DNA of 12,449 nt from Bacillota bacterium (lineage in GTDB: Bacteria; Bacillota; Dehalobacteriia; UBA4068): assembly GCA_017439615.1 (NCBI GenBank), contig JAFSIU010000128.1:1-12449 (forward strand), read 5' to 3'. Position numbers and translations under genes: made by a program. Shown here one piece after another: positions 782-8,023 of the stretch. The notes under the pieces were generated by a model. The model searched no databases. It was given only the letters and a program-made list of their open reading frames with translations, and was not told the DNA's origin. Position 1 is the first letter of the stretch; the number at the start of each line of letters is the position of its first letter.

Positions 782-1231
782 TTATTCTGCAGAGTACTGA
801 CACACATCACAGGTGTTCAATACGATAATACCATTAGCTTTCAAAAGCTCCTCTGCTTTCTCATTTTCTTCAACTTCTTCAATGCGCAGAATAATATATG
901 CATTTTCCTGATTATGAGTGATAAACGCATACACATATTCAAGGCCATAGCCGTTGTCGGCAAGAATTTTCAGCACATTTTCCAAAGTTCCTGGACGGTC
1001 AGGAAGAGCTACACCGAGCACCTCATTGATTGTAACTATGCATTTTTCTGCTTCGAGTAATTTCTGCGCTCTGAAAGGATCATCACAAATTAAGCGCAAA
1101 ACGCCAAAATCTGCAGTATCTGCAATGGACATTGCGCGCAAATTGATATTATTGGATGCCAATAAGGACATGATCTCCTGCAATGTACCCACTCTGTTTT
1201 CAACAAAAACGGAAACCTGTTTGATAGTCAT
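782..1231 (-). CDS. Tandem ACT-domain protein, probable amino acid-binding regulator of the operon
   Basis: A small cytosolic protein of 149 residues made of two ACT domains and little else. The first spans roughly residues 3-65 with the loop ENRVGTLQEI (11-20). The second spans roughly 72-140 with PDRPGTLENV (77-86), where the D/N-x-x-G-x-L signature of the ligand-binding loop is repeated. ACT domains bind amino acids, often at dimer interfaces. Stand-alone tandem-ACT proteins of this kind are commonly found beside paaK and iorAB in anaerobes, but their precise role is not established to my knowledge. There is no DNA-binding or catalytic domain. The ATG at 1231 follows AAGGAGGGG, which overlaps the paaK stop codon TAA (1249-1247), so the two genes are probably translationally coupled. 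It is the last gene before the terminator. By inference it senses Phe/Tyr or an aryl intermediate and tunes an enzyme in the operon. Confidence 0.88.
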   Translation of the reverse strand: MTIKQVSVFVENRVGTLQEIMSLLASNNINLRAMSIADTADFGVLRLICDDPFRAQKLLEAEKCIVTINEVLGVALPDRPGTLENVLKILADNGYGLEYVYAFITHNQENAYIILRIEEVEENEKAEELLKANGIIVLNTCDVCQYSAE

Positions 1232-1246
1232 AGTGATTTCCCCTCC

Positions 1247-2545
1247 TTAAATCTTTCTCTTGTCAATAATTCTGACTGCTTTACCTTCGCTTCTTGCAAT
1301 GGTTTTAGGCGCAACGAGAGTTACTTTAGCAGAAAGCCCAAGCATATTCTTCAATGCGGCAACAAGCTCTTTTTCTTTGGCAGAAATATGCTTAACCGTA
1401 TCAGAGAAAATTTCAGGTGTCATTTCTACTACTACTTCAAGTGTATCAGAGAAATTGACTCTGTCAACAATAATTTGATAATTTGCTTCATATCCGTTAT
1501 TAAGCAAAACTGTTTCGATCTGAGATGGGAATACATTGACGCCTCTGATGATGAGCATGTCGTCGCTTCTGCCCATGGGCTTTGCCATTTTGATAAGAGT
1601 TCTGCCGCAGGAGCATTTTTCTCTCTTCAAAACGCAAATATCTCTTGTGCGATAGCGAATGAGCGGGAATGCTTCCTTGCTGATGCAGGTGAAGACCAAT
1701 TCGCCTTTCTCACCCTCCGGCAAAACTTCACCGGTATTCGGATTGATGATTTCGGCAATGAAATTGTCTTCATTGATATGCATACCTGTTTGCGCACTGC
1801 ATTCAAAGGAAACGCCGGGGCCGCAAATCTCGGTAAGTCCATAAATATCATATGCCTTTATGCCAAGCTTTTGTTCTATATCATGGCGCATTTCTTCGCT
1901 CCATGCTTCAGCGCCAAAGATGCCGGCTTTCAGTTTGATATCATCACGTCTTCCATGCTCATTAATACTTTCAGCAAGATATTCGGCATAAGAAGGTGTG
2001 CAGCACAAAATGGTAGATCCCAAATCGCACATTAATTGAATCTGCCTGTCAGTATTACCCGAGGAAGTTGGCACTGTTAAAGAGCCCAGCTTATGAGAGC
2101 CGCCGTTTAAGCCGGGGCCGCCTGTGAACAAGCCATAGCCATAGCTGACCTGAACTACATCGTCCTTTGTACCGCCTGCAGCAACGATTGCTCTGGCGCA
2201 GCAGGTATCCCACATATCAATATCGTTTTGAGTATAAAAAGCAATAACTCTCTTGCCTGTGGTGCCGCTGGTAGACTGAATACGAACACAGTCACTTAAA
2301 GGTGCGGCCAAAAGACCATAGGGATAGGCCTCACGCAAATCGTCTTTTGTAACAAAGGGCAGTTTGTGCAGATCATCAACAGATTTGATATCTTCCGGAG
2401 TTATGCCTGAGGCTTCCATTTTAGCACGATAATAGGGCACATTTTCATAAACTCTTTTGACGGTTTTGACCAATCTTTCGTTTTGGATTTCTTTTAATAC
2501 TGAAGGATCGGCACATTCGATTTCAGGGTTGAAATATCTTTCCAT
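1247..2545 (-). CDS. paaK: Phenylacetate-CoA ligase (PaaK family)
   Basis: Activates phenylacetate or a related aryl acid with ATP and CoA to the aryl-CoA thioester and AMP plus diphosphate. This 432-residue cytosolic enzyme is full length for the compact PaaK branch of the ANL superfamily. The phosphate-binding loop STSGTTGK is at residues 91-98, YGLTE at 234-238, RYRTRD at 296-301, a cysteine cluster (C303 and CSCGR 310-314) seen in many anaerobe PaaKs, and the hinge region GRSDD...RGVNVFP at 324-339. I chose the ATG at 2545-2543 because AGGAAGG (2560-2554) sits 8 nt upstream. An in-frame GTG at 2554-2552 overlaps that site and is rejected. It lies 35 bp after iorB and just before the ACT gene. 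Together with iorAB it interconverts arylacetate and arylpyruvate. The exact aryl substrate cannot be read from the sequence. Confidence 0.93.
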   Translation of the reverse strand: MERYFNPEIECADPSVLKEIQNERLVKTVKRVYENVPYYRAKMEASGITPEDIKSVDDLHKLPFVTKDDLREAYPYGLLAAPLSDCVRIQSTSGTTGKRVIAFYTQNDIDMWDTCCARAIVAAGGTKDDVVQVSYGYGLFTGGPGLNGGSHKLGSLTVPTSSGNTDRQIQLMCDLGSTILCCTPSYAEYLAESINEHGRRDDIKLKAGIFGAEAWSEEMRHDIEQKLGIKAYDIYGLTEICGPGVSFECSAQTGMHINEDNFIAEIINPNTGEVLPEGEKGELVFTCISKEAFPLIRYRTRDICVLKREKCSCGRTLIKMAKPMGRSDDMLIIRGVNVFPSQIETVLLNNGYEANYQIIVDRVNFSDTLEVVVEMTPEIFSDTVKHISAKEKELVAALKNMLGLSAKVTLVAPKTIARSEGKAVRIIDKRKI

Positions 2546-2580
2546 TTTAATCACCTTCCTAAAATATAATTTGAAAATTC

Positions 2581-3153
2581 TTATGAATTTTTACCCAAAT
2601 CAAAAGCTTTTCTGTTAAGCTCCAAAAACTTTGTAGGCACGCATTGTGTCAATGCCTCCTGCCATGCTTCATCAGAAATACCCAAATAGTTTGCAAAGCG
2701 GCCCATAAGAACTATATTTACCGCCTTTGGTGAACCTGCCTCGCAAGCCAGAGAAAGTGCATCGAGGGCATCTACCTTTGCTCCTGCTGCTTCCATTTTT
2801 TGCGGCAAATTCTCGGGATAAGAGGCATTGCCGGTAATGACAGGCATAGGATCGATTTGCTGAGTGTTGACAACAACAATGCCATCTTTTTTAAGGTATT
2901 CGAGATTTCTTGCTGCTTCAAGCATTTCGAAGGAAATAATGAAATCAGCCTCTCCCTTGTCGATAATCGGGGAATAAACCTTGTCGCCATAGCGAACATA
3001 TGTCACAACTGAACCGCCGCGCTGACTCATGCCATGCACCTCGGAAACCTTAACATCATATCCCTGGTTCAGCAGTAATCTGCCTAAAAGCTTGGAGGCA
3101 AGAAGTGAGCCCTGACCGCCTACGCCGACGATCATAATATTCTTCGTTTCCAT
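2581..3153 (-). CDS. iorB: Indolepyruvate ferredoxin oxidoreductase, beta subunit (IorB)
   Basis: The 190-residue small subunit of the IorAB 2-oxoacid:ferredoxin oxidoreductase. It corresponds to the gamma domain of pyruvate:ferredoxin oxidoreductase, which in that family helps bind CoA and assemble the complex. The motif GVGGQG is at residues 10-15 and EVHGMSQRGGSV at 38-49, both typical of the family, and the length is normal. The complex catalyses arylpyruvate + CoA + oxidised ferredoxin = arylacetyl-CoA + CO2 + reduced ferredoxin, reversibly in principle. The ATG at 3153 is preceded by GGAGGAGG (3168-3161), which lies inside the last codons of iorA. Only 2 nt separate the genes, so translation is coupled and the subunits should be made in equal amounts. 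No iron-sulfur cysteines are expected in this subunit and none in ferredoxin arrangement are seen. Confidence 0.95.
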   Translation of the reverse strand: METKNIMIVGVGGQGSLLASKLLGRLLLNQGYDVKVSEVHGMSQRGGSVVTYVRYGDKVYSPIIDKGEADFIISFEMLEAARNLEYLKKDGIVVVNTQQIDPMPVITGNASYPENLPQKMEAAGAKVDALDALSLACEAGSPKAVNIVLMGRFANYLGISDEAWQEALTQCVPTKFLELNRKAFDLGKNS

Positions 3154-3155
3154 TT

Positions 3156-4889
3156 TTATACCTCCTCCTGATAGCCTTGCAATGCATCAAATGCGCATAA
3201 CTGAGTACAAATGCCGCAGCCTACACAAAGTGTTGCATCAACTGAAGCCTTATCATTCTTAATGCTGATTGCAGGACAACCGATTCTCATGCACAGCTTG
3301 CAGCCCTTGCAGGCATCAACATCAACAGTTAATGCAGGCTTGGGTTTTACAGTTTTAAGCAAAGCACAAGGACGGCGGGAAATTATCACAGAGGGCTCAT
3401 CAATATTGACCTCCTCTTTTATAACCTCTGCGTTTTGAGCAAGATTATATGGGTCAACAACTCTCACTCTGTTGATGCCTATAGCCTTGCATAAGGCCTC
3501 AAGATCAATTCTACCTGCCGGATCGCCCTTGATATTCAATCCTGTGGTAGGATTTTGCTGATGTCCGGTCATGCCTGTGATGGAGTTATCCAAAATGATA
3601 ACAGTTGAAGCAGAGCCGTTATAAGCAATATCTGCCAATCCGGTCATGCCTGAATGCATAAAGGTCGAATCACCGATAACTGCGACAGCTTTTTTACCTG
3701 TATCCGCGTGATTGAAGCCATGAAGAGCAGAAATAGAAGCACCCATGCAGAGCGTCATATCCATTGCAGAAAGCGGAGCAACAGCGCCGAGAGTATAGCA
3801 GCCGATATCACCCAGGACAGTCAGCTTTTGCTTCATAAGAGTATAGAAAAGACCTCTGTGCGGGCAGCCTGCACACATAACAGGCGGACGATTGGGAATT
3901 TCCTGCTCAAGTTTTTCACAGCCTGCCGAAATTGATCTGCCGAATTTCTCTGCCAGCAGATTTTGAGAAAATTCGCCTATGAGAGAGAAAATCTCTTTAC
4001 CTTCAACCTTTAGCCCCAATGCTCTGCATTGATTTTCAATCACAGGGTCGAGCTCCTCAATGACAACAAGTCTGTCAACGGCAGCGGCAAAGTCGCAAAT
4101 CGTTTTGTCGGGCAAGGGATAGACCATGCCAAGCTTCAATATGCTGGCTTCATCACCAAATACCTCTTTGGCATATTGATACGAAGTGCCGGAGGTGATG
4201 ATGCCGATAGACCTGCTTCCCCACTCAATACGGTTTAAGCTGTTGGTTTCAGCATATTCCTGCAAGTCCTTTATTCTCTTTTCAACAATCGGATGCTTTA
4301 GCTTGGCATAGGCAGGCATCATAACATATTTTGCTGCATCTTTGGTATAGGGTTTGCCGATTTCGATTCTCTCACCTATTTCAGTTATTGATTGCGAATG
4401 TGCGATTCTGGTGCAAAGACGAAGCAGAACAGGGGTATCAAATTCTTCGGATATTGCATATGCGAGCTTGGCATATTCAAGGCAATCTGAGGAATCGGCA
4501 GGCTCCAGCATAGGGATTTTAGCCGCAATCGCATAGTGACGGGAATCCTGCTCATTTTGCGAGGAATGCATGGCAGGGTCATCAGCAACAGCAATCACCA
4601 TGCCTGCGTTGACGCCTGTATAAGAAATGGTGAATAAAGGATCTGCAGCAACATTCAGACCTACATGCTTCATGCCGCAAAAGCTGCGTTTGCCGCCTAA
4701 AGCTGCGCCGAAGGCGACCTCCATAGCAACCTTTTCATTAGGTGCCCATTCAGAGAAAATGTCATCATATTTGGCAAGTGCTTCCGTGATTTCAGTACTT
4801 GGTGTGCCGGGATAAGAAGAAGCAACCGCACATCCGGCCTCATAAAGGCCTCGTGCTACTGCATCATTACCGAGTAATAATTTTTTCAA
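3156..4889 (-). CDS. iorA: Indolepyruvate ferredoxin oxidoreductase, alpha subunit (IorA)
   Basis: The catalytic 577-residue subunit, which carries thiamine diphosphate and iron-sulfur clusters and works on aromatic 2-oxoacids (indole-, phenyl- and hydroxyphenylpyruvate). Domains in order: N-terminal pyrimidine-binding domain with YPGTPSTEIT (26-35); a middle transketolase-C-like domain (about 220-310); a TPP-binding domain with CAGCPHRG (339-346), GDIGCYTLG (360-368), GDST (406-409) and DNS (434-436); and a C-terminal two-cluster ferredoxin domain. Cluster motifs are C527/C530/C533/C538-Pro and C555/C558/C561/C565. In the second the usual Pro after the last Cys is Ala566. The start is TTG at 4889-4887, 9 nt after GAAAGGGG. 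No in-frame ATG or GTG is better placed, and the protein begins exactly at the family's usual KKLLLGNDA start. It follows the MFS gene by 24 bp and is coupled to iorB. Ferredoxin itself is not encoded here. Confidence 0.96.
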   Translation of the reverse strand: MKKLLLGNDAVARGLYEAGCAVASSYPGTPSTEITEALAKYDDIFSEWAPNEKVAMEVAFGAALGGKRSFCGMKHVGLNVAADPLFTISYTGVNAGMVIAVADDPAMHSSQNEQDSRHYAIAAKIPMLEPADSSDCLEYAKLAYAISEEFDTPVLLRLCTRIAHSQSITEIGERIEIGKPYTKDAAKYVMMPAYAKLKHPIVEKRIKDLQEYAETNSLNRIEWGSRSIGIITSGTSYQYAKEVFGDEASILKLGMVYPLPDKTICDFAAAVDRLVVIEELDPVIENQCRALGLKVEGKEIFSLIGEFSQNLLAEKFGRSISAGCEKLEQEIPNRPPVMCAGCPHRGLFYTLMKQKLTVLGDIGCYTLGAVAPLSAMDMTLCMGASISALHGFNHADTGKKAVAVIGDSTFMHSGMTGLADIAYNGSASTVIILDNSITGMTGHQQNPTTGLNIKGDPAGRIDLEALCKAIGINRVRVVDPYNLAQNAEVIKEEVNIDEPSVIISRRPCALLKTVKPKPALTVDVDACKGCKLCMRIGCPAISIKNDKASVDATLCVGCGICTQLCAFDALQGYQEEV

Positions 4890-4913: not shown

Positions 4914-6128
4914 TTAAGGTCTCTTGATACTCATATTAATTAATAAGCCGAGAAGTGAAAAACCTGTTAAAGCTGCAAATATAATTGTAAACGAGCCGAA
5001 TTGAGTCAGGATTGCACCTGCAAGCGTCGCACTAAAAGATGCCGGGAATAATTGCAGATTGATAAGACTGAGGTTCAGCGCAAAATTCTTGCTGCCATAG
5101 AAGCCTGCAATCATGGAGGCCGACATGGTCGGAGCAAAGCCATAAGAAAGCCCGCAGAGGCACAAGCCAATAACACCGAGCAGCAGATTGGTAAGAGCTA
5201 CACCTGCAAGCGTAATAGCGGAGGCAGAAATTACTATTGTGCTCATTAGAATCTGAGCAAATTTCATGCCGTATTTATCAAATACAAAGCCCGAAACCAC
5301 CCTACCCAAGCCATTGAAAACGGAAAGCAGGCCAACGATAGTAACTGCCAGAGACTCCCCTGCACCGACCTCCAAGGAGATTTCCTTGGCAAAGCTGATG
5401 GCAGTTGAACCAACAGCACATAATAGAATGAAGAAAATGAACATCTTGATAAAGGTTGGCCTCTTCACCATTTCAATACCGGTGATATCTATTGCTTCAA
5501 AGGCTTGCTTTGCGTTTGCCTTGGATTTGCCCTGTGGAAAAACTGCATCTCTGGGTGGCATTTTCAGCAGCAAGGCTGCAACTAAAAGTACTGCACCAAT
5601 CGCAATGCCCAGGGCAAGAAATGTATTTCTCCAACCGAAATCGGGAGTATCAATCAGATTACCTGCAACTTTGCCAAGTACCAGGGTACTGAAGCCAAAG
5701 GCCATAAACAGCACTCCGGAGCAAAGACCTTTGTTATCAGGAAACCATGCTGCTGTAGCAGCGGTTATCGCATTATATACTATACCAATGCCTAGACCTG
5801 CTAATATCGCATAACCAAGCAAAAGCGGAATAATGCTCTCGCCTGAAAGCTGTGAGGTGATGAAAAAGCCAGCAAAAACCATTATTGCACCAGCTAAGGT
5901 TCTGATATTTGCCGAGAGCTTTTTGGATAAAATGCCGGAAATCATACCGCCGATACAGAACATGGAAATTGTCAAAGAATAATTCAACCCAAGCTGTGAG
6001 GAGGTCCAGCCGAATTCCGTGGAAAGGGGCGCTTTAAGAATAGACCAAGCATAAATAATGCCTGCGAATAATAAAGCAACACTGCCGACTATCAAGCGAA
6101 AAATTCGTGATTGATTTGTAACCTGCAT
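4914..6128 (-). CDS. MFS transporter of the oxalate/formate antiporter-like (OFA) type; candidate aryl acid transporter
   Basis: A 404-residue inner-membrane protein with about 12 hydrophobic segments in the usual 6+6 layout. The first is residues 11-30, and a cytoplasmic loop (about 190-225) contains basic and acidic residues. The sequence FAGIIYAWSILKAPLSTEFG (21-40), the glycine-rich GLGIGIVYNAI (111-121) and GWRNTF (165-170) resemble OFA-family carriers, which move small organic acids. The ATG at 6128 is preceded by AAGGGGGA at a 7-nt spacing. It sits 17 bp after the first CoA ligase and 24 bp before iorA, so it belongs to the pathway. A natural substrate would be phenylacetate, 4-hydroxyphenylacetate or indoleacetate: imported if the pathway is reductive, exported if it is oxidative. 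The family assignment is fairly secure; the substrate is inference only. Confidence 0.85.
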   Translation of the reverse strand: MQVTNQSRIFRLIVGSVALLFAGIIYAWSILKAPLSTEFGWTSSQLGLNYSLTISMFCIGGMISGILSKKLSANIRTLAGAIMVFAGFFITSQLSGESIIPLLLGYAILAGLGIGIVYNAITAATAAWFPDNKGLCSGVLFMAFGFSTLVLGKVAGNLIDTPDFGWRNTFLALGIAIGAVLLVAALLLKMPPRDAVFPQGKSKANAKQAFEAIDITGIEMVKRPTFIKMFIFFILLCAVGSTAISFAKEISLEVGAGESLAVTIVGLLSVFNGLGRVVSGFVFDKYGMKFAQILMSTIVISASAITLAGVALTNLLLGVIGLCLCGLSYGFAPTMSASMIAGFYGSKNFALNLSLINLQLFPASFSATLAGAILTQFGSFTIIFAALTGFSLLGLLINMSIKRP

Positions 6129-6145: not shown

Positions 6146-7780
6146 TCAACCGTTATTTTGTGCTGCTACCAGCGCTTCGCCGCCAAAAATCTTACGCAGC
6201 TTCGGCTTTTCAATTTTTCCAGTTGGGTTTCTAGGGACATCTGCAAAAATGATTTTGCGCGGGCGTTTATAGCGCGGCAGTTGTTGACAGAATTTTTCAA
6301 TTTCTTCTTCTGTGCAGGTATATCCTTTTTTGATTTCTATAATAGCAGCGGATATCTCGCCCAATCTCTTATCCGGAAGACCGATTACGGCTACATCATT
6401 GATTGCGGGATATGCGCTCAGGAAGTTCTCGACCTGAACAGGATAGATATTTTCGCCGCCGCTGATAATAACATCCTTCTTACGATCAACCAGGAAAATA
6501 AAGCCATCTTCATCCCGCATAGCCATATCGCCTGTATAAAGCCAGCCGTTCCTCAGAATTGCTGCTGTTGCAGCTTCATCATTATAATAGCATTTCATAA
6601 CGCCGGGGCCTTTGACGCAAAGCTCACCAACTTCGCTGCCTTGAACAAGCTCGTCATTTTCATTGACGATTTTGACCTCCCAGCCATATCCGGGAACACC
6701 GATTGCGCCAACCTTATGTATATTTTCAACACCGAGATGTACACAGCCCGGTCCGATAGATTCGCTTAAGCCGTAATTTGTATCATAATCATGCTTCGGG
6801 AAAATCTCTTTCCAATGCTTGATAAGACTTTGAGGAACAGGCTGCGCACCGATATGCATCAAGCGCCATTGTGCGAGCTGATAATCGACAGCTTTCAGCT
6901 CTCCGCTATCAAGCGCATTCAGGATATCCTGCGCCCAAGGAACCAGCAGCCATACAATGGTGCAGTGCTCATTGGAAACAGCCTCCAAAATGCTTTTGGG
7001 CGTGGCGCCCTTGAGCAAAACTGATTTTGCGCCCACAAGGAAGCTGCCGAACCAATGCATTTTGGCGCCTGTATGATAAAGCGGCGGTATGCAAAGGAAA
7101 ACATCGTCCTTGGTTTGTCCGTGGTGTGCTTGTTCTACCTTGCAAGAATGCATAAGGCTTTCGTGATCGTGCAAAATTGCTTTAGGAAAGCCGGTCGTGC
7201 CGGAGGAAAAATATATGGCAGCATCATCTTTATCAGTCAACTTAATATCGGGAGAATTGCTGCCGCAATTTGCAGTCAGCTCGGCATAGGAATCGGCAAA
7301 GGCGGGACAAGTTTCATTGCCGACATATATAAGCTGTCTGTTTACTTCGATTTCCTCTGCAATTTCCTCAATACGACCAATGAATTCGAAGCCGAAAACA
7401 AGCACATCGACTTCCGCCAGATCAAGGCAATATTTGATTTCATCGGAAGTGTATCGGAAATTAAGCGGCACAGCTAAAGCGCCTGTTTTGAGAATACCGA
7501 AATAAATAGGCAGCCATTCCAGGCAATTCATTAAAAGAATGGCGACCTTATCTCCTTTTTTGATTCCGCGTGATAAAAGCAGATTTGCAAAGCGGTTTGC
7601 TTTTTCATTGAAAACATTCCATGTAATTTCTCTGCGAAAGTAGGCGGATGCCGTAGATTCAATGAGATCAAATTCACGCCAGGTACGACGTTTTTCACTG
7701 CGTTCGGGATTGATTTCGACAAGTGCGGTATCATTACCGAACATTTGACAGTTTTTCTCCAAAATCTCTGTGATTGGCAT
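6146..7780 (-). CDS. ANL-superfamily acyl/aryl-CoA ligase (class I AMP-forming)
   Basis: The first structural gene of the attenuated operon, a 544-residue cytosolic AMP-forming CoA ligase. All core motifs are present: P-loop SSGTTGFPK (192-200), NYGLSE, WLYTGDMA, the hinge RKKDVIISGGENIYP, and NPTGKIEKPK near the C-terminus with the probable adenylation lysine K522. It is a different subfamily from the PaaK gene downstream, closer to fatty acid and benzoate-type ligases. The N-terminus has two similar elements, RRTWREFD (31-38) and RREITWNVFN (49-58), either an internal duplication or a subfamily trait. I chose the ATG at 7780-7778, 8 nt after AGGAGG (7794-7789). A TTG extension to 7837 is rejected because it would translate the terminator hairpin. 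From context the substrate is probably an aryl acid such as 4-hydroxyphenylacetate, but the sequence alone does not show this. Confidence 0.9.
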   Translation of the reverse strand: MPITEILEKNCQMFGNDTALVEINPERSEKRRTWREFDLIESTASAYFRREITWNVFNEKANRFANLLLSRGIKKGDKVAILLMNCLEWLPIYFGILKTGALAVPLNFRYTSDEIKYCLDLAEVDVLVFGFEFIGRIEEIAEEIEVNRQLIYVGNETCPAFADSYAELTANCGSNSPDIKLTDKDDAAIYFSSGTTGFPKAILHDHESLMHSCKVEQAHHGQTKDDVFLCIPPLYHTGAKMHWFGSFLVGAKSVLLKGATPKSILEAVSNEHCTIVWLLVPWAQDILNALDSGELKAVDYQLAQWRLMHIGAQPVPQSLIKHWKEIFPKHDYDTNYGLSESIGPGCVHLGVENIHKVGAIGVPGYGWEVKIVNENDELVQGSEVGELCVKGPGVMKCYYNDEAATAAILRNGWLYTGDMAMRDEDGFIFLVDRKKDVIISGGENIYPVQVENFLSAYPAINDVAVIGLPDKRLGEISAAIIEIKKGYTCTEEEIEKFCQQLPRYKRPRKIIFADVPRNPTGKIEKPKLRKIFGGEALVAAQNNG

Positions 7781-7794
7781 ACAAATTTCCTCCT

Positions 7795-7827
7795 GATAAA
7801 AAATAAAGCCGCAGCAATGGCTGCGGC
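7795..7827 (-). terminator. Attenuator terminator (3:4 hairpin) ahead of the CoA ligase gene
   Basis: GCCGCAGC (7827-7820) pairs perfectly with GCTGCGGC (7815-7808) around the 4-nt loop CATT, followed by TTTATTTTTT (7807-7798). This is a strong GC-rich 8-bp stem with a U-tract, lying just before the ribosome binding site of the ligase gene and downstream of the leader peptide. Its position inside its own operon marks it as a regulated terminator and not an operon end. Confidence 0.92.
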
Positions 7828-7925
7828 ATAAAAGCAAAAAAACTATGCTAATAACACATAAACAGCCATTACTAAAAACCTGCGCTTTTAAAATAAGCGT
7901 AGGTGCTAAAGTAAAAATAGCTGTT
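7808..7925 (-). promoter_or_regulatory. Attenuator RNA with mutually exclusive stems 1:2, 2:3 (antiterminator) and 3:4 (terminator)
   Basis: Region 1 (AACAGCTATT, 7925-7916, inside leader codons 7-10) pairs with region 2 (AATGGCTGTT, 7870-7861) over 10 bp with one G-U. A nested hairpin, CCTACGCTT (7903-7895) with AAGCGCAGG (7887-7879), has one mismatch. Region 2, extended to 7874-7862, pairs with 7824-7812 over 13 continuous bp (10 Watson-Crick and 3 G-U). That uses the 5' arm, the loop and part of the 3' arm of the terminator, so antiterminator and terminator cannot coexist. The leader stop codon TAG is the first three bases of extended region 2. The arrangement matches the enteric phe/trp attenuators: a ribosome stalled in region 1 frees region 2 to form 2:3 and transcription continues; a ribosome reaching the stop covers region 2 and 3:4 terminates. 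All pairings were read directly; no folding energy was computed. Confidence 0.88.
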
Positions 7926-7943
7926 GTAATATGCTTTTATCAT
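7872..7943 (-). CDS. Aromatic-rich leader peptide (23 aa) of a Tyr/Phe attenuator
   Basis: A short ORF with ATG at 7943-7941, TAG stop at 7874-7872 and an AGGAG site (7955-7951) 7 nt before the start. Residues 5-18 read YYNSYFYFSTYAYF and the last residue is F23. In total 6 Tyr and 4 Phe make up 10 of 23 residues, with no Trp or His. The start is about 21 nt after the predicted transcription start. The peptide itself probably has no function; its translation reports tRNA-Tyr and tRNA-Phe charging. Codons 7-10 are region 1 of the attenuator and the stop codon lies in region 2, so ribosome position directly sets which RNA stem forms. A second stop, TAA, follows immediately. It is analogous in design to enteric pheL, with which it shares no obvious sequence. 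I know of no named family for it. Confidence 0.9.
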   Translation of the reverse strand: MIKAYYNSYFYFSTYAYFKSAGF

Positions 7944-7970
7944 AGCTAAACTCCTGAAATTAATGTAATA

Positions 7971-7999
7971 ATAATACAAAAGCATAGATAATTTGTCAA
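7971..7999 (-). promoter_or_regulatory. Sigma-A promoter of the leader and aromatic operon
   Basis: A perfect -35 box TTGACA (7999-7994), a 17-bp spacer and -10 TATTAT (7976-7971; one mismatch from TATAAT). Transcription should begin at about 7966-7964, giving a leader of roughly 185 nt before the CoA ligase ATG. It is the best promoter match in the window, as expected for an attenuated operon with constitutive initiation. One arm of a 10-bp inverted repeat lies in the spacer. Confidence 0.88.
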
Positions 8000-8023
8000 G
8001 AAAAATATAAAGCCTATGCTTTT
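7978..8023 (-). repeat. 10-bp perfect inverted repeat around the -35 box: operator or weak gpsA terminator
   Basis: The + strand reads AAAAGCATAG at 7978-7987 and CTATGCTTTT at 8014-8023, separated by 26 bp that hold the -35 box. The right arm touches the gpsA stop codon. In gpsA mRNA the arms could form a 10-bp AU-rich stem followed by UUUGUAUUAUU, a weak terminator. As DNA they could be an operator. There is no evidence here to choose. Confidence 0.55.

Follow-up and report, generated by a model that had tools for sequence, protein, structure and literature searches.

What switches on an operon that joins an aryl-CoA ligase to an indolepyruvate:ferredoxin oxidoreductase (IOR), and does the sign of that switch indicate whether the operon makes aromatic amino acids or breaks them down? 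The question is raised by the minus strand of the window, which is the whole stretch of 12,449 nucleotides analysed here, from the genome of an uncultured anaerobe of the Bacillota (assembly GCA_017439615.1, contig JAFSIU010000128.1; 1.26 Mb, 74% complete) denoted G000. Other G-codes stand for genomes, L-codes for loci or MAGs, and C199 for a contig of G000. The best explanation overall is a Tyr-sensing attenuator on an operon that would make Tyr and Phe from aryl acids, a reading to which we give a probability of about three in four.

The operon has the order ligase-MFS-iorA-iorB-paaK-ACT (Table 1), and the curated models for the alpha (TIGR03336) and beta (NF005325) subunits of IOR both score over their cut-offs. 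No NCBIfam model reached its cut-off for the first ligase among the 25 listed of 108 matched. By its score the second, PaaK-like ligase is not a TIGR02155 equivalog, and it may work in the manner of PaaK.

Between gpsA, which ends at 8023, and the ligase, which starts at 7780, positions 7999-7798 of the minus strand carry a promoter, a Shine-Dalgarno (SD) sequence, a short reading frame and a terminator, in that order. The preliminary description of this DNA had proposed a promoter, a leader ORF with its own ribosome-binding site, a pause stem, an antiterminator and a terminator in succession; all of these were located base by base, the pause stem as a candidate 1:2 pairing, and the 23-residue leader with six Tyr and four Phe residues is present as described. 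Leaders as short as 23 codons are under the usual limits of gene callers. Within the leader RNA, the 1:2 and 2:3 pairings can compete with each other, and the 3:4 pairing would form the terminator. Only 27 bases separate the terminator stem from the ATG of the ligase, so that the terminator lies in the path of every transcript started at the 7999 promoter, and a promoter scan of the region revealed no promoter that could serve the operon without crossing it.

The sensed signal would be charged tRNA-Tyr and probably charged tRNA-Phe as well. With sufficient Tyr, the ribosome would reach the leader stop codon and cover region 2, and the 3:4 terminator would stop transcription before the ligase. 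With Tyr in short supply, the ribosome would stall in the Tyr codons and cover region 1, region 2 would pair with region 3, and the ligase-MFS-iorAB-paaK-ACT genes would be transcribed.

Table 1. Elements of the putative attenuator and genes of the operon, in positions of the window
Feature	Position	Strand	Details
Sigma-70-type promoter TTGACA/TATTAT	7971..7999 (TTGACA 7999-7994, TATTAT 7976-7971)	-	17-nt spacer, 11/12 consensus matches
Shine-Dalgarno CAGGAG of leader ORF	7951..7956	-	7 nt 5′ of ATG
Leader ORF MIKAYYNSYFYFSTYAYFKSAGF, 23 codons, 6 Tyr + 4 Phe	7872..7943	-	Stop TAG 7874-7872
Region 1 AACAGCUAUU, within Tyr codons, partner of region 2	7916..7925	-	10-bp 1:2 duplex, -10.7 kcal/mol
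Region 2 AAUGGCUGUU, antiterminator arm, GCUG core	7861..7870	-	2:3 duplex, -13.0 kcal/mol
Region 3 GCCGCAGCCAUU, terminator 5′ arm and antiterminator partner	7816..7827	-	Promoter/terminator scan, duplex energy
Region 4 GCUGCGGC (7815-7808) and U-run UUUAUUUUUU (7807-7798), 3′ part of intrinsic terminator	7798..7815	-	
AMP-forming acyl/aryl-CoA ligase, first operon gene	6146..7780	-	SD AGGAGG 7794-7789
OFA-type MFS monocarboxylate transporter	4914..6128	-	Best match NF049980, 223 bits, cut-off 320
iorA, indolepyruvate:ferredoxin oxidoreductase alpha	3156..4889	-	TIGR03336, 725.4 bits, cut-off 650.9
iorB, IOR beta	2581..3153	-	NF005325, 280.4 bits, cut-off 230
PaaK-like arylacetate-CoA ligase	1247..2554	-	TIGR02155, 501.2 bits, below cut-off 646.3; PF14535
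ACT-domain pair protein	782..1231	-	PF19571

The hairpin might serve only as the terminator of gpsA, downstream of which it lies, with the Tyr-rich ORF a by-product of AT-rich sequence. The 242-nt intergenic region, at 30% G+C, does favour Tyr and Phe codons, and the promoter motif alone is not above chance (two promoter-like sites in the region versus 1.4 expected), its match being weak evidence by itself. When the region was dinucleotide-shuffled 20,000 times, 21 shuffles held an SD-preceded ORF with at least six Tyr codons and none held one that also had at least ten Tyr plus Phe codons within 25 codons or fewer, so that the leader ORF is not accounted for by base composition. A similar leader at the ligase of the related genome G014, where the upstream gene is not gpsA, and the want of a promoter that would let the operon avoid the terminator also speak against a hairpin that serves gpsA alone, and we hold that account to be very improbable. 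Terminator-like sites number two in the region versus 0.3 expected, and the leader RNA folds with a z of -7.1, none of 200 shuffles being equally stable. An antiterminator run that matches the strength of 2:3 is moderately unlikely by chance (33 of 2,000 shuffles; 14 of 1,000 in a separate run). In a looser duplex test that allowed bulges, the window was not significant (79 of 500 shuffles as good), and across eight leaders 27 to 201 of 500 shuffles did as well.

Folding of the RNA at successive ribosome positions reproduces the expected switch in part. All bases 5′ of the leading edge of the ribosome, placed 15 nt from the start of the A-site codon, were masked, and the remainder was folded at equilibrium. 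In this crude model of the window leader, the terminator has a probability (P) of 1.00 with the ribosome at codons 21-24, of 0.08-0.43 at codons 7-10, 14 and 16-19, while 2:3 forms, and, with 1:2 formed, of 0.97-1.00 at codons 1-3. Read-through is favoured with the ribosome at Tyr codons 9 and 17 and Phe codons 10 and 18, neither outcome at Tyr codon 15 (P 0.49), and the terminator at Tyr codons 5, 6 and 11 (P 0.60-0.82). For the ligase leader of G014, P is 0.07-0.24 at codons 6-10, 0.09-0.12 at codons 17-19 and 0.94-1.00 from codon 21, with Tyr codons 10, 18 and 19 favouring read-through (0.08-0.12) and Tyr codons 12, 13 and 16 termination (0.75-0.99). The model is not clean, because some Tyr codons in both leaders favour the terminator. 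For a pheA leader of G000 and the aroF leaders of G014, G013, G016 and G018, which are taken up below, P is 0.99-1.00 at every ribosome position. Equilibrium folding thus yields partial switching in the two ligase leaders and none in the five aroF/pheA leaders that were modelled.

The comparison set comprised 20 genomes of the G000 family and 43 of its class, which is probably Dehalobacteriia. A ligase match at E ≤ 1e-200 is present in ten family genomes out of 20; these ten sequences are full-length, and G019, G010 and G004 each have a further, partial ligase that is cut off by a contig end. A Tyr leader precedes two of the ten, those of G000 and G014, and among the best 80 ligase loci listed a leader with a terminator occurs, under the thresholds applied, at one, L028, which is the G014 contig. 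The G014 leader peptide, MFNPATINAYSYYFSYAYYSVVSSLMAV, sits before an orthologous ligase in a different gene neighbourhood; the ligase stands single on this 7.5-kb contig, which carries neither gpsA nor iorAB. The fold of the G014 leader is ordinary (z -1.64, with 14 of 200 shuffles as stable). BLAST of the window leader DNA against the 20 family genomes did not recover it; one other match fell below 0.001, of 26 bases in a T-rich stretch of G019 (E 3.6e-4), and the rest were at 0.006 or worse. An initial leader detector, set to at least 30% aromatic residues, did not pick up G014 and returned one other, weak match at L064. A degenerate pattern, built from the G000 and G014 leaders themselves, matches only these two among the 43 class genomes, and in a sample of 398 genomes from the phylum it occurs in five, G000 and four more, a reversed control pattern occurring in three.

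Other ligases of the family are preceded by a Tyr T-box with the specifier GAA-UAC. Three of the ten have one, in G001 (101.5 bits), G018 (108.3 bits) and G009 (87.3 bits, under the Rfam cut-off of 93), and in G009 a transporter gene lies between the T-box and the ligase. The ligase of L036 has another (7679-7936, GAA-UAC, 121.2 bits), the one T-box revealed by motif scan among the best 80 ligase loci listed. The ligase T-box loci with a Tyr (UAC) specifier are L185, L183, L191 and L036. As a check on specifier reading, the T-box before trpE in G003 reads GAA-UGG, for Trp (91.1 bits, cut-off 93). Given T-boxes at the orthologous ligase in G001, G018, G009 and L036, the leader RNA of the window might itself be a T-box or a riboswitch with an incidental ORF. 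Against this, the window has no Rfam match at gathering score, the T-box family (RF00230) included, and a Tyr-rich reading frame is found in both G000 and G014, which leaves a structured RNA of this kind with a very small chance of being the explanation.

L036 and G009 have, next to the ligase and in the same direction, a transporter gene that was assigned to the SSS type by eye from its sequence. At L009, whose ligase lies near that of G014 on the ligase tree, a promoter-like sequence is followed by a short leader hairpin (CACAACC...GGTTGTG, with a T-run) about 70 nt upstream of the ligase, and no Tyr-rich ORF follows the promoter-like sequence.

The remaining five family ligases, in G003, G015, G008, G016 and G005 (the least alike), are preceded by another structured leader. 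In the five loci (L090, L091, L092, L093 and L087) it lies some 150 nt upstream of the ligase and consists of GUAGGUUU..., GGACGGNAAnnCGGUAG... and then a terminator. No matching Rfam family was found, and the consensus fold is the terminator stem only, with two-sided changes at two of nine pairs. Possibly this leader is an undescribed attenuator or riboswitch.

Leader peptides of the kind seen at the ligase occur on the de novo pathway, too. On contig C199 of G000 (L211, 3904-3685, minus strand), pheA-aroB-aroC is preceded by a promoter with 12/12 matches, the leader MYFNYYRFYYCNTDFLSASCS and a terminator, and the leader fold has a z of -4.7. The promoter/terminator scan, with a loop limit that this terminator exceeds, reported in its place a weaker site within the leader ORF. 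Tyr/Phe leaders with terminators precede aroF-tyrA-aroB-aroA-aroC-pheA in G001 (L223), G013 (L221), G008 (L225), G016 (L224; MKNISFLFTAYYYYFYFTKHKIRVVFAAN) and G018 (L226), and further ones precede aroF in G014 (L247) and pheA in G003 (L227) and G015 (L228). The leaders of G018, G003 and G015 and the aroF leader of G014 were spotted by visual inspection of upstream sequence or ORF lists, not by the detector. In all, nine of the 20 family genomes, G000 included, have a Tyr/Phe leader on an aroF or pheA operon, a count that leaves out G005, in which the operon start is off the contig, and G004, G006, G007, G009 and G010. The upstream pieces of G012 and G019 hold no leader, and G011, G017 and G002 have CGCAG-type terminators and no convincing Tyr/Phe ORF. 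The aroF gene of G000 itself follows another gene and has no leader. At gathering score, Rfam gave no match in eight aro/phe/trpE loci, the trpE T-box of G003 included.

Leader-peptide attenuation had been called uncommon in this setting. Nine of the 20 family genomes have such a leader on an aromatic biosynthesis operon, so that the leader of the window is not a one-off, and the statement holds to the extent that T-boxes are also used in the family; genome-wide, they are present in 19 of the 20 genomes at E ≤ 0.001 and over the Rfam cut-off in 12.

Covarying bases in related genomes had been named as a check on the attenuator, and a GCUG:CAG core with covarying flanks is indeed present in eight of the 11 leaders (two ligase, six aroF). 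In these eight, GCUG lies 77-81 nt after the ATG (96 nt in G018), a CAG in the 5′ arm of the terminator pairs with it, and the flanks of the core covary, with G-C, C-G and U-A at one position. Of 48 variable cells 39 are paired, a level equalled in 12 of 40,320 permutations; when each lineage is represented once, 30 of 36 are paired and three of 720 permutations do as well, figures that are supportive and do not amount to a blind test, because the register was chosen after inspection. The first version of the test, with seven leaders and five variable pairs, gave 16 of 5,040 permutations, and four of 120 for five lineages. G018 was anchored on its last GCTG and G008 on the first of two. The pheA leaders of G000, G003 and G015, with terminators that lack the CGCAG core and no antiterminator found, are outside the test. 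Antiterminator runs stand out individually in only three of the 11 leaders, those of the window, G014 aroF (15 of 2,000) and G016 (47 of 1,000), and the leader peptides align loosely, with 19-36% identity to that of the window. The anatomy, the chance controls, the G014 leader, the aro/phe leaders of the same family and the Tyr T-boxes on orthologous ligases together support the attenuator proposed at the outset, and a ribosome-mediated attenuator before the ligase is, on this evidence, highly probable.

The operon itself also occurs outside the G000 family. Sporobacter termitidis (L002) and the MAG L004 have ligase-MFS-iorA-iorB-paaK-ACT, the MAG L019 has the same operon with about 1.7 kb more between the ligase and the MFS gene, and the MAG L046 has it without the MFS gene. 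The preliminary description had taken relatives with the same operon and no leader as evidence against the attenuator, and such relatives do exist: a leader is absent upstream of the ligase in all four (225 bases upstream in the case of L046). These are Oscillospiraceae-type, of other families than G000, and we therefore read the missing leader as different regulation in other families rather than as a refutation; the ligase leader was found in the G000 family only. Among the four, a terminator-like hairpin is found upstream only in L019, where it overlaps a promoter-like TTGACA. In a tree of 94 ligase sequences, three of them partial, the window ligase clusters with L002, L004, L019, L046 and L006 (support 0.93), followed by G014, G019, L009 and L036 (0.93), and the remaining family ligases are far away; given this grouping, transfer of the ligase or its operon between lineages is probable. 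By eye, repeats like TTTAAAGCG / GCGCTAAAG lie around the ligase promoter in L002, L004, L006, L019 and L003 (Oscillospiraceae/Lachnospiraceae), where a repressor operator perhaps takes the place of the leader.

Leader-peptide attenuators and T-boxes both switch genes on when the cognate tRNA is uncharged. A catabolic operon is not expected to need such a switch, and the sign of the switch fits synthesis better than catabolism; taken with the pheA leader in the same genome, the simplest reading is that the operon would make Tyr and Phe from aryl acids. An arylacetate operon in the sense of degradation, as the preliminary description had it, is therefore disfavoured, and from the sign of regulation we infer that the operon probably serves Tyr/Phe biosynthesis. 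In the route envisaged, aryl acids would be taken up and converted to aryl-CoA, IOR would form arylpyruvate by reductive carboxylation, and transamination would yield Tyr and Phe. Formation of Phe from phenylacetate has been described in the rumen (Allison 1965, cited in PMC7356843), and Methanococcus maripaludis has a second route to aromatic amino acids that starts from aryl acids (Porat et al., cited in PMC4162585). Because G000 keeps chorismate synthase (aroC) and prephenate dehydratase (pheA), the aryl-acid route would be supplementary and not the only possible source, and the idea that it is essential was dropped on the same ground.

The attenuator could be real and the chemistry run the other way. 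The operon would then ferment aromatic amino acids or keto acids, with IOR working oxidatively and the ligases recovering ATP/CoA or acting on other acids, and uptake or redox needs would lie behind the control by Tyr starvation. IOR has been described as oxidative (PMC5817080), and the Dehalobacteriia, found in rumen, gut and digester samples among others, are inferred to be amino-acid users (PMC10327494), so that catabolism by IOR would be allowed. The leader and the T-box, however, turn on when the amino acid is missing, which is the wrong sign for catabolism, leaders of this type also stand before pheA and aroF operons of the family, G000 included, and Tyr T-boxes stand on orthologous ligases. 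We consider fermentation unlikely and prefer synthesis of Tyr and Phe from aryl acids.

Homologues of iorA (E ≤ 1e-80) are present in 18 of the 20 family genomes. A trpE-type (chorismate-binding) match was found in one of the 20, many of which are incomplete, and since 19 are without such a match, Trp is probably salvaged, perhaps from indole or indole acids. In G012, a T-box (L162:1201-1443; 84.5 bits, below the cut-off) lies directly upstream of another iorA homologue, with a specifier that is ambiguous, AUG or UGG by register.

A wider proposal, which we rate at somewhat better than even odds, is that a route from arylacetate to Tyr/Phe, with a dedicated CoA ligase and IOR, belongs to the Tyr-starvation regulon of the G000 family, where leader peptides like those found before aro/phe genes, Tyr T-boxes and perhaps an undescribed leader RNA as a third means would each tie the same ligase to that signal. 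If this is true, a route that has been known from the biochemistry of rumen anaerobes since 1965 gains its genes and its control. The switch provides regulatory evidence for the direction of an IOR operon, beyond what sequence annotation alone gives. With named genes it becomes testable how anaerobes of gut and rumen form aromatic amino acids from acids of the phenylacetate type, an old question, and the Bacillota gain a lineage that uses both leader-peptide attenuation and T-boxes, the one replacing the other at the same gene. The preliminary description knew of no attenuator at an iorAB-paaK operon, and in the titles and abstract beginnings of the open-licence papers listed no report of attenuation or T-boxes at an iorAB/arylacetate-ligase operon was found. 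The main text of a T-box survey (PMC2494555) is likewise without indolepyruvate, phenylacetate or CoA ligase.

Leader-peptide attenuators of the pheA, trp and his type are known from Proteobacteria. The window leader resembles them in the order of its parts, in the 1:2, 2:3 and 3:4 pairings and in the regulatory codons of the leader, and differs in its Bacillota host, in Tyr as the main codon and in an IOR/aryl-CoA ligase operon as the target. Closer to its host lineage, his leader peptides precede the hisZ/hisS paralogue of bacilli as regular leader peptides of Firmicutes, where attenuation replaces T-boxes and sensing systems are exchanged at the same gene (PMC2965389), as at the ligase; the amino acid and the genes are others, and the likeness is one of description. 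The ilv-leu operon of S. aureus, with a Leu-rich attenuator supported by mutants (PMC5794164), is likewise an amino acid operon of a low-G+C Gram-positive under leader-peptide control, there for leucine and a branched-chain operon. T-box leaders (RF00230) share with the window leader the signal, uncharged tRNA-Tyr, and in G001, G018, G009 and L036 the same ligase gene, but read the tRNA directly and have no leader peptide. The aryl-acid route of the archaeon M. maripaludis resembles the proposed one in its use of iorAB and in making aromatic amino acids from aryl acids (PMC4162585), a likeness that concerns the route. Exchange of T-boxes and leader peptides as such is already known in Firmicutes (PMC2965389, PMC5794164). 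The mechanism as such is classical, and what is new is the operon targeted, the control that this operon shares with de novo synthesis, and the exchange of leader peptide and T-box at the ligase.
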